Part shown: positions 31,622 to 34,759 of the stretch, in pieces | Position numbering within the stretch: the stretch's first letter is position 1 | Layout: each line of letters opens with the position of its first letter | DNA from: Halobacteriovoraceae bacterium | GTDB taxonomy: Bacteria > Bdellovibrionota > Bacteriovoracia > Bacteriovoracales > Bacteriovoracaceae | Direction of reading: 5' to 3' | DNA: 35,209 nucleotides | Assembly: GCA_002715375.1 (NCBI GenBank) | Contig: PAZA01000068.1 | Location: 1-35,209, forward strand | Translations under genes and position numbers: made by a program | The notes under the pieces: generated by a model | Database searches by the model: none | Told to the model about the DNA's origin: nothing | Seen by the model: the letters and a program-made list of their open reading frames with translations, nothing else

Positions 31622-31721
31622 TTGGACCTTACCTTTCAAAGAGACACCCTGACTAAAACTGTCGGCTATTTTTTTTCCTTACTTTAGTGATTTTTCTTTG
31701 GTGACCTGCCATAATAAATCT

Positions 31722-32216
31722 ATGTTTATAAACAAGTTAATTAAGAAACCAATTTTACCTATAGCTTTTCTCCTCACATATCTTCTAATCCATCAATTAG
31801 AGGAAAAAAAAATAATAGATTTATCTGAAAGGGCTGAAATTCTAAAGGCAACTTCTTGCAGGGCCGTTCTTGTAAACCTAAAACGTCGAGTTCCAAAAAA
31901 CTGGTCTACAACTTGTGAAAATAATATCCTGACAATTGAAATGGAGAAATCCCTTAAAAATGTAAAAAATAAAAAAAATTTCCAGGCATACCTTTATAGA
32001 GAACTTGCTAATGATATTATCTTTACAGCAAAAAGCTCCCCAGTAGATACCTTGGAAAATGTAACTTTAGCTCGCTTTATCGTAAATTCAGACAAGATTA
32101 TTATCAAAGCAGCTATTTTCGGTGACGATTTGGTAAAATTCACAACACTTAAGAGCAAAAGGTTAATCCTTAATCACTTCAAAAAAACTGTCAAGGTTAA
32201 AGAATTTTTCAAATAA
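31722..32216 (+). CDS. Small protein with N-terminal membrane segment, unknown
   Basis: A 164-residue protein beginning MFINKLIKKPILPIAFLLTY, a basic end and one hydrophobic segment (residues about 10-22) that is either a signal anchor or an uncleaved signal peptide. The rest is soluble-looking, basic, with two Cys (in ATSCRAVLV and STTCENN) that could pair in the periplasm. No family recognised. The ATG at 31722 is preferred to a TTG at 31698; neither has a strong ribosome binding site. Its last 54 nt overlap, head-on, the end of the RluA-family gene on the minus strand, so both reading frames are constrained there. Confidence 0.65.
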   Translation: MFINKLIKKPILPIAFLLTYLLIHQLEEKKIIDLSERAEILKATSCRAVLVNLKRRVPKNWSTTCENNILTIEMEKSLKNVKNKKNFQAYLYRELANDIIFTAKSSPVDTLENVTLARFIVNSDKIIIKAAIFGDDLVKFTTLKSKRLILNHFKKTVKVKEFFK

Positions 32217-32897
32217 GTAAGCATTCATAGCTTTTCCCTTTATAGTCATTCCTTCTAAAGGAACTTCATAGTAAAGAGCATGCAAAAAAATTCTTAGTGA
32301 CGGCCCCCCCCCATACAATTCGTCTCCTAAAATAGGAAAACCTAAATGAGATAGTTGAGCCCTTATTTGATGCCTAAGACCTGTCTTTAATTTTATCATT
32401 AGAAGTGAAACTTTTTTTTCAGAATTATAATGAACTTTCTTAATTAATATTTTACCTTCTCTGGTTTCTTTCAAGAATTTTTTTTCTCTATGATCGGAAA
32501 CAACCATTTTCTTTCCATGCTTTAAAGATGGACGAAGAAAAGAGGTATACTCACCATCGCTTTCAAAATGCCCCTCAACAATAGTTAAATAACATTTTTC
32601 TTTAACCAAATTATTAAAATCTTCTCTTATATTTAAATAATCTTTTTCATCTTTAACAAGAACTAAAACTCCTGAAGTTCCATAATCAAGACGATACAGC
32701 AACCCTCGATCCATATTATTTTTATTAACTTTTAAAGCCTCGAAATAATTATTATTTCTTAAAAAACTTAAACAGTTATCTTTTTCATTATACTTCAAAG
32801 GATGAGAGTGAATTCCCGAAGACTTATTTAAGATAATACACTTAGCATCCTCATGAAGAACTTCTATTTCAGGTCCTTCATAAACAGGATAAATCAT
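32163..32897 (-). CDS. RluA-family pseudouridine synthase, catalytic part (gene split by a frameshift)
   Basis: The 244-residue frame from MIYPVYEGPEIEVL contains the full RluA-type catalytic domain: ILNKSSGIHSHP, the catalytic Asp in YRLDYGTSGVLVL (Tyr in place of the usual His before RLD), and KTGLRHQIRAQLSHLGFPILGDELYGG. It would isomerise uridines in rRNA or tRNA. It is not the complete gene. The frame remains open upstream of the ATG, and the missing S4-like N-terminus is found in the adjacent frame at 32927-33085, the two joining by a -1 shift at ten A (32948-32957, T on the plus strand). The joined protein would be 307 residues, a normal RluA-family size. The ATG at 32897 has a poor ribosome binding site (AAAAAG). 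The 3' end overlaps the convergent gene by 54 nt. Confidence 0.85.
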   Translation of the reverse strand: MIYPVYEGPEIEVLHEDAKCIILNKSSGIHSHPLKYNEKDNCLSFLRNNNYFEALKVNKNNMDRGLLYRLDYGTSGVLVLVKDEKDYLNIREDFNNLVKEKCYLTIVEGHFESDGEYTSFLRPSLKHGKKMVVSDHREKKFLKETREGKILIKKVHYNSEKKVSLLMIKLKTGLRHQIRAQLSHLGFPILGDELYGGGPSLRIFLHALYYEVPLEGMTIKGKAMNAYLFEKFFNLDSFFEVIKD

Positions 32898-32926
32898 CTT
32901 TTTATTGATTATATCGATTGGTATAC

Positions 32927-33085
32927 TTATTTCCGTTTTAGAAATGATTTTTTTTTTAGAATTTTCTTATTTAAGACAAATTTCTTAATTTCTCTTTTAG
33001 AGGCTCCAAATAGAGTTATCAATAAGTCTTCAAAAGTCTCATATGATTGCAATATAGATAATTTTATTTCTTTTTCTATTATCAT
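32927..33085 (-). CDS. N-terminal S4-like part of the split RluA-family gene
   Basis: A 52-residue frame starting MIIEKEIKLSILQSY and containing FEDLLITLFGASKREIKKFV, which reads like the S4 RNA-binding region at the start of RluA proteins. It ends early, in FLKRK, after a run of ten A (plus-strand T run 32948-32957). If one nucleotide is re-read there, the frame continues through KTEISIPIDIINKK straight into MIYPVYEGPE of the catalytic part, without a stop. GGA at 6 nt precedes the ATG, and AGGAG is a little further up. It starts 26 nt after the motB stop on the same strand. It may be a disrupted gene, a sequencing error in a homopolymer, or a slippage-expressed gene. Confidence 0.7.
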   Translation of the reverse strand: MIIEKEIKLSILQSYETFEDLLITLFGASKREIKKFVLNKKILKKKSFLKRK

Positions 33086-33111: not shown

Positions 33112-33978
33112 CTATTGTGAATCAACCTTTTTTCCTGGAGTCCTCAAATCTGTCTTTCTTAATAAAAACTCTACTCTTCTACTTTGAACTTCATCTGGAC
33201 TCCCTCCTTCATTATAACGGAAGGGCCTAGTATCTCCATAAAAGACTGTGCTTATTTTTGAGGGTCTTACACCTCTTTTAATGAGTGCTCTTGTTACACC
33301 ATCAGCTCGATAAGCAGAAAGGTTGAATGCATCTAATTTTCCGTCTAAGGAAGTCTCCCCAAGGCTAGCATGACCCTCAACAAATACATTCCAATCTTTT
33401 GCCCTTAGAAGCTGTATTAGCCTATCAAAAACTTCTATCGAAATTTCTTGAATTTTTACAGAGCCCTTCTTAAATAAGATACGGTCTTTAATTCTTACTT
33501 TAATTCCCTCAGGCAACTCATAAATGTCTACGTTATCTGTAAGAGAATATTCTCTTAAATCCTGCTTCATCACATTCAAGACTTCATCAGATTCTCTATT
33601 AACTTCATGTTTATTTAGTAACCCTTCCATTGTTAAGAAATCGATAGGAAAAGGTTTGACTGGCTGTTCAGCTTCAATCATTGTCGGTGCATTGTCGGCA
33701 GACTTACCACGATGGATAATTTCACCATGTTTTAAAACATTCCCGCCAAAGGTATTTCTTAAAGATCCCAAGGCAGCTTCAAATTTAGCTGATTCAGTCT
33801 TCGCAAATGAAAGAAGGAGGACAAAAAATGTCAAAAGAAGTGTCACTAGATCTGAAAATGTGGCCATCCACCCGGGAAGACCAGGAACACATATCTCACA
33901 TTCCGGACACTCTTGCTCCTCAGCGCCTCCACCGTCTCCGCCGCCTGCACCTTCTTCTCCTTCAGCCTCTTCTGCCAT
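33112..33978 (-). CDS. motB: Flagellar stator protein MotB (PomB-like)
   Basis: A 288-residue inner-membrane protein that anchors the stator to peptidoglycan and carries the ion-binding Asp. The single membrane span with Asp43 (WMATFSDLVTLLLTFFVLLLSF, about 37-58) is followed by a linker with the plug region, and an OmpA-like domain (about 170-280: FVEGHASLGETS, NLSAYRADGVTRALIKRGV and RRVEFLLRK). The segment GLPGWMATFSD and the Cys residues before it resemble Vibrio PomB, suggesting possible Na+ coupling. Residues 4-23 are an unusual Glu/Gly/Ala-rich stretch, followed by CPECEIC (24-30). The gene lies 16 nt after motA and probably shares its transcript. Confidence 0.94.
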   Translation of the reverse strand: MAEEAEGEEGAGGGDGGGAEEQECPECEICVPGLPGWMATFSDLVTLLLTFFVLLLSFAKTESAKFEAALGSLRNTFGGNVLKHGEIIHRGKSADNAPTMIEAEQPVKPFPIDFLTMEGLLNKHEVNRESDEVLNVMKQDLREYSLTDNVDIYELPEGIKVRIKDRILFKKGSVKIQEISIEVFDRLIQLLRAKDWNVFVEGHASLGETSLDGKLDAFNLSAYRADGVTRALIKRGVRPSKISTVFYGDTRPFRYNEGGSPDEVQSRRVEFLLRKTDLRTPGKKVDSQ

Positions 33979-33994: not shown

Positions 33995-34759
33995 TTATTC
34001 TCCAGCGTCCTCAACTTCTCTCTGAGCTGGAGGAAGAAACGAACTAAGTTTTTCTTTAATAAGTCTTGGGTTTTCACCCGCTACAATACCTAAGGTTCCG
34101 GCAATTATAATGGACATTTTAGTTGCCTCTTGCTTTGACCTAAAGGCGAGCTTCGCCTTGACGGGGTTACCTGCAATGTTTGCAATCAATGAACCATAAA
34201 ATGTAGTCAAAAGTGCAATGGCCATAGCAGGTCCAATAGCTGACTGATCCTGTAAGTTACCAAGCATGATAACCAACCCAATAAGTGTTCCAATCATTCC
34301 AAAAGCTGGGCCATCTTCAGCTACTCCGGCAAAGAGGTCAGATCCCATCTTATGTCTTTCAACCATGGCATCAATTTCGAGCTGTAAAATTGCACTGATG
34401 ACTTCAGGAGGACGGTTATCTGCAGCTAGAGTCATAGCTTTTTTTAAGAAAGGATCATCTATAGGAACCTTTTCAAGGGCAAATATAGACTCTCTCCTGG
34501 CAGTCTCTGCTAAATTTCCAATCTCATCAATCGTAGATTTTGGATCGGCTGGAGAGAAGAAGATTGCCTTTAAGAAATAGGTAGGAATTGATAGAACGGT
34601 TTCCAAAGGCCACTTAATAAATGTCGCTCCAACCATACCGAAAATAACTGTGAACATACTAGGTGGGTCAATAAAAGCACCAAGGCCTGAAGCCATAAGA
34701 ATTGTAGCTAAAACGGCACCTATACAAACAACAAAACCAATAACTGTGGATATATCCAT
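33995..34759 (-). CDS. motA: Flagellar stator protein MotA (PomA-like)
   Basis: A 254-residue membrane protein, the length of PomA, with four hydrophobic segments. GLGAFIDPPSMFTVIFGMVGAT is near the N-terminus; the cytoplasmic loop carries the charged stretch NLAETARRESIFALE that contacts FliG. GSDLFAGVAEDGPAFGMIGTLIGLVIMLGNL and the last span precede a positively charged C-terminus. These segments match PomA/MotA; the Na+ or H+ type cannot be proven from sequence. A GAGGAAC ribosome binding site precedes the ATG. A candidate flagellar-sigma promoter is at 34791-34817. Confidence 0.95.
   Translation of the reverse strand: MDISTVIGFVVCIGAVLATILMASGLGAFIDPPSMFTVIFGMVGATFIKWPLETVLSIPTYFLKAIFFSPADPKSTIDEIGNLAETARRESIFALEKVPIDDPFLKKAMTLAADNRPPEVISAILQLEIDAMVERHKMGSDLFAGVAEDGPAFGMIGTLIGLVIMLGNLQDQSAIGPAMAIALLTTFYGSLIANIAGNPVKAKLAFRSKQEATKMSIIIAGTLGIVAGENPRLIKEKLSSFLPPAQREVEDAGE

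Follow-up and report, generated by a model that had tools for sequence, protein, structure and literature searches.

RNA polymerase errors in A/T runs are mostly insertions, and these become exponentially more frequent as the run lengthens (PMC5574713). In the AT-rich endosymbionts Buchnera and Blochmannia, genes frameshifted at long A runs are corrected by poly(A) slippage, the frame being restored in 12–50% of transcripts (PMC5009743). The tssM gene of C. rodentium carries an A11 run just before its first-frame stop and gives rise to transcripts with 10–15 A; an extra A leads to the long product without stimulators, and both products as well as their ratio have been proven necessary (PMC4256274). 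In dnaX, where runs of A9 (Thermus) and A10 (Chlorobi) are active across species and two useful products are made, A10 runs with –1 breaks have been credited to transcriptional slippage (PMC3711429).

The rluA-like gene described here lies on the reverse strand of a 35,209-nt stretch of DNA from a Halobacteriovoraceae bacterium (hereafter, the window) and is split at a comparable run. The sequence and its list of ORFs revealed an N-terminal frame of 52 aa (32927–33085, –; ATG at 33085, TAA at 32927) and a catalytic frame, offset by –1, that is open from 32966 to its stop at 32163. The two overlap by 37 nt (32930–32966, –), the sole doubly open stretch, and inside it sits the A10 run (32948–32957, –; also found in our census of A runs) at which the frame changes. 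The span from 33085 to 32163 measures 923 nt, 1 short of 308 codons. An earlier note on this DNA had claimed just such an arrangement, an RluA-family gene encoding one protein in two frames with a –1 offset, and its coordinates proved exact. It had also set the catalytic domain at 32163–32897: the ORF is right (244 aa from its first ATG, 32895–32897, –), but 32897 is merely the first ATG, and conserved codons of the catalytic frame reach upstream to the end of the run (32163–32948, –). We refer to the codons lying 5′ of this first internal start, IISKTEISIPIDIINKK (32898–32948, –), as the spacer.

We consider it likely that this is a functional gene, expressed via recoding at its poly(A) run by RNA polymerase slippage, and that the break arose once, in the genus ancestor, from an unsplit gene. 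The polymerase would slip on the A9 or A10 run and lengthen some of the transcripts by one A. Slipped mRNA would then encode a full-length, S4-plus-catalytic RluA-family pseudouridine synthase of ~307 aa and unslipped mRNA the 52-aa N-terminal fragment, and the break would have been tolerated or kept since slippage rescues the frame. We infer the transcriptional nature of the slippage, as well as how efficient it is and what the product does. So read, the locus resembles the endosymbiont genes in its AT-rich lineage, its break at a long A run and the presumed restoration of the frame in some transcripts, but it resides in a multi-megabase Bacteriovoracaceae genome of 34% GC, and its break is kept across species. 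With tssM, a different gene, it would share the run just before the first-frame stop, the long product obtained from an extra A and the lack of stimulators; proof that both products and their ratio are necessary exists for tssM. Run length, –1 class and cross-species conservation are as in dnaX, whereas the usefulness of the 52-aa fragment, in contrast to the two dnaX products, is doubtful.

The catalytic part matched PF00849 (PseudoU_synth_2) with 63.6 bits against a cut-off of 26.8 and, partially, the RluA subfamily model TIGR00005. It contains the motif RLDYGTSG, corresponding to RLDxxTSG with the catalytic Asp (codon 32687–32685, –), and the invariant columns among 33 orthologs include R132, D134, T137, S138 and G139. 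As scores against the RluA, RluC, RluD and TruC equivalogs were low (43.9–51.7 bits vs. cut-offs of 286–378), the assignment stays at the RluA family level, short of a specific RNA target. The gene thus has the catalytic fold and motif of the RluD/RluA-family 23S rRNA and tRNA pseudouridine synthases, but differs from them in being split and in scoring under these cut-offs. No Pfam match was obtained for the 52-aa N-terminal piece. The model of an unsplit ortholog (pLDDT 93) shows a small helical N-domain, and its best structural match was full-length RluD, with which it aligned over 314 columns; by this model, rather than by any family match, the detached piece probably represents an S4-like RNA-binding domain.

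In the window's genome (a 2.64-Mb draft, 72% complete, 103 contigs), the gene follows a motA-like gene (33995–34759, –; PF01618) and motB (33112–33978, –; PF13677 and PF00691), its upstream neighbor. This synteny is kept in relatives, most orthologs in the family being preceded by a motB tail, and 119 of 129 family genomes encode an rluA-like homolog (E ≤ 1e-30). A convergent ORF of 172 aa (31698–32216, +) without a match in Pfam or NCBIfam shares 54 nt with the rluA-like gene at the 3′ end of the latter; in L009 (G023), the ortholog likewise faces a convergent frame with a similar product.

Three genomes of the genus are known (the window's, UBA7317 and G002), each an incomplete draft assembly, and the split is present in all three, at the same place and in the same –1 class. 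Comparison of the A run between relatives, as the earlier note had proposed, revealed A10 in the window and UBA7317 and A9 in G002, so that a homopolymer of at least nine A sits at each break; it starts 128 nt from the ATG in every case. The gene lengths of 923 nt (window), 926 nt (UBA7317, L006/L035) and 920 nt (G002, L007) are all 2 mod 3, with the catalytic frames of UBA7317 and G002 being 81% and 54% identical to that of the window at the amino-acid level. This shared arrangement argues that the window's split is not due to chance and, given that the tree groups the split genes in a single clade (support 99/96), one origin of the break suffices.

Outside the genus, a set of 48 orthologs and 13 more, picked because their open frames were short or their scores low, were all single-frame, with in-frame N-termini homologous to the detached piece; one further ortholog locus was interrupted by a contig end. 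A conserved short form with the N-terminal frame absent, raised earlier as a counter-indication, was hence not encountered in this set. On a profile built from the 48 unsplit orthologs (295 positions), the N-halves of the split genes matched positions 2–40 and the C-halves positions 45–294, i.e. adjoining parts, which bears out the joined reading as one protein. The N-halves scored 19–22 bits (window: 20 bits, positions 3–38), compared to ~0 bits for shuffled or reversed controls. Orthologs of genus g60, considered as possibly split, have frames of 274–283 aa that turned out to be simply short. Six unsplit orthologs contain an in-frame A9 or A10 run in their N-terminal region (L023 with A10; L016, L033, L034, L039 and L041), suggesting a site prone to become slippery.

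Between the window species and UBA7317, separated by ~1 synonymous substitution per site, pN/pS was 0.28 in the N-half (42 codons), 0.23 in the spacer (17 codons) and 0.17 in the catalytic part, the first two being rough values from short segments and that of the N-half lying somewhat above that of the catalytic part. G002 is more distant, with synonymous differences near saturation, yet both halves are still open and homologous. In the compared pair, the other two frames of the N-half contain 4–7 stops, and no further stops or frame breaks were found in either half across the three species. By this measure, both halves and the spacer codons are shown to evolve under purifying selection. Among these results, spacer conservation would appear to matter most: as the spacer is conserved in the catalytic frame and no start of that frame exists upstream, ribosomes should arrive from the N-terminal frame.

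A census of A runs in the window's genome and its relatives, built from short stretches around the runs, uncovered a second split gene with an A12 run on contig C97 (G000:C97:4960–about 6900; loci L098, L104 and L192). Its ortholog in UBA7317 (L105/L193) has A14 in the same –1 class, and pN/pS between these orthologs was 0.21 for one half and 0.20 for the other. The N-half comprises one membrane helix, an AxA-Q-like site and, by eye, a GYF-like domain that had no Pfam match; the C-domain measures ~400 aa, and a TsaC/YrdC-like gene is located nearby in several relatives. N-halves of this type occur in 121 of 129 family genomes. Including C97 and UBA7317, a –1 break at an A run, with the N frame stopping shortly past it, was observed at 25 distinct loci from 15 genera of Bacteriovoracaceae (A9, n = 5; A10, n = 14; A11, n = 2; A12, n = 3; A14, n = 1). 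While the discovery of this case was conditioned on an A run in the window's genome, its conservation in other genera was not.

Past the run, the –1 frame at these loci stays open for 149–454 aa (in some cases bounded by the stretch examined), as opposed to <10 aa for the +1 frame, and the C-domains encoded past the break have homologs in the C-domains of the unbroken relatives (E down to 1e-71). Although ribosomal slippage on A_AAA_AAA needs just seven A, the breaks show A9–A14; none of the 25 loci had A7 or A8, with A8 as the search minimum, such that A7 sites would score as having no run, a category into which three of the loci read fell. Downstream folding was at chance level (mean z –0.26). 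Exceptions to the general arrangement exist: three unbroken loci have no run (L217, L201, L215), the C-domain is lost in L226, L248 and L250, and in G010, G028 and G112 the N frame stops before the membrane helix, G028 having no long run and a break at only A6. In four unbroken relatives, A9 or A10 lies in frame near the equivalent place, where slippage would give the short form instead. Judged from sequence conservation, the gene is a strong candidate for conserved programmed slippage and appears both stronger and more surprising as a case than the rluA-like gene. Being independent, it renders productive slippage in Bacteriovoracaceae more credible.

Programmed –1 ribosomal frameshifting on A_AAA_AAA, which would join the halves of the rluA-like gene at translation and leave the mRNA at A10, strikes us as rather unlikely. 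The zero-frame codons CTA AAA AAA do hold this heptamer of the X_XXY_YYZ type, which PMC3711429 lists among those used in recoding, and the direction in rluA is uniformly –1, which leans towards the ribosome by the rule of that paper; both observations count against polymerase slippage. However, no evident Shine-Dalgarno-like stimulator was seen upstream of the rluA break and no RNA structure downstream of it in the three species (z –1.3 to +0.5, folding without pseudoknots), although a stem-loop or pseudoknot is a usual, if non-obligatory, stimulator of –1 frameshifting. Moreover, the membrane-protein gene, with A9 or longer at 25/25 loci and with runs in registers 0, 1 and 2 relative to the zero frame, follows the pattern of polymerase slippage. 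As errors in A/T runs are mainly insertions, their direction fits that needed at the rluA A10 run. The earlier preference for slippage or frameshifting over decay is thus supported by the comparison with relatives, and within it the choice of a transcriptional event is one that we infer.

Explanations without recoding fare worse. RluA-type synthases are often dispensable, the break concerns a single base and the genome holds three other PF00849 genes, all of which would suit a recent or ongoing pseudogene with an unrescued split and decaying halves; yet additional lesions are missing and pN/pS is low in both halves over ~1 synonymous substitution per site, making this very improbable. We give still less credence to internal initiation, whereby translation from ATG 32897 would give an S4-less short synthase, with a separate small protein encoded by the N frame. 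The 244-aa ORF indeed begins with ATG, and RluA and TruC of E. coli have no S4 domain, but the internal start is TTG in G002 (L007), a Shine-Dalgarno sequence is absent before it in all three species, the 17 codons 5′ of ATG 32897 are conserved in the catalytic frame, and orthologs of all other genera inspected have the fused form. Equally slight is the probability that the run was misread in sequencing or assembly, or that its length varies in the population and phase variation was caught in an off state. Long homopolymers are error-prone and mutable and the assemblies are drafts, but three independently assembled species agree on the frame class, and their genomes together hold at least 17 A-sense runs, 10 or more long and within coding sequence, that read in frame; with most coding A10 runs in frame, a systematic undercount of run length is not indicated. 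Assembly error, which the earlier note had named as a possible refutation, thus seems very unlikely on the evidence of these assemblies, and phase variation is unlikely at the rluA run, as all three species would have to share a single off state out of two, improbable by chance.

If RNA polymerase slippage does operate at these loci, its use may extend beyond single genes. Whether Bacteriovoracaceae employ it at A9–A14 runs as a standing device that sets the short-to-long ratio of several genes, including the rluA-like and GYF-like ones, appears to us an evenly balanced question. Were this so, the synthase case would span one genus and the membrane-protein case the whole family, and either genomic phase of the run in the latter gene would yield both products. 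To our knowledge, conserved poly(A)-run recoding is documented for few bacterial genes, and a literature search for recoding in Bacteriovorax, Halobacteriovorax, Bdellovibrio or Bacteriovoracaceae, or for RluA frameshifts, returned nothing relevant; the mechanism is known, the genes are new. Throughout one genus an rluA-like gene is kept out of frame, and the same signature recurs in a second gene in 15 genera. Gene callers split such genes or label them pseudogenes. Transcript length at one site would provide a direct and cheap test of this lineage's reliance on slippage.

Other runs were inspected as well. Within the catalytic frame of the rluA-like gene, a nine-G run (32304–32312, –; LYGGGP) is in frame and absent from UBA7317 and G002, whose residues differ. 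Two apparent frame changes at long runs in UBA7317 (L139 and L163) proved to be gene starts, not splits. Lastly, a sulfotransferase-like gene near a contig end of the window's genome (G000:C6:1–1010, L059) is split at A11 in the opposite class (+1); with no clear ortholog in other genus members, it may be a pseudogene or another case of slippage.
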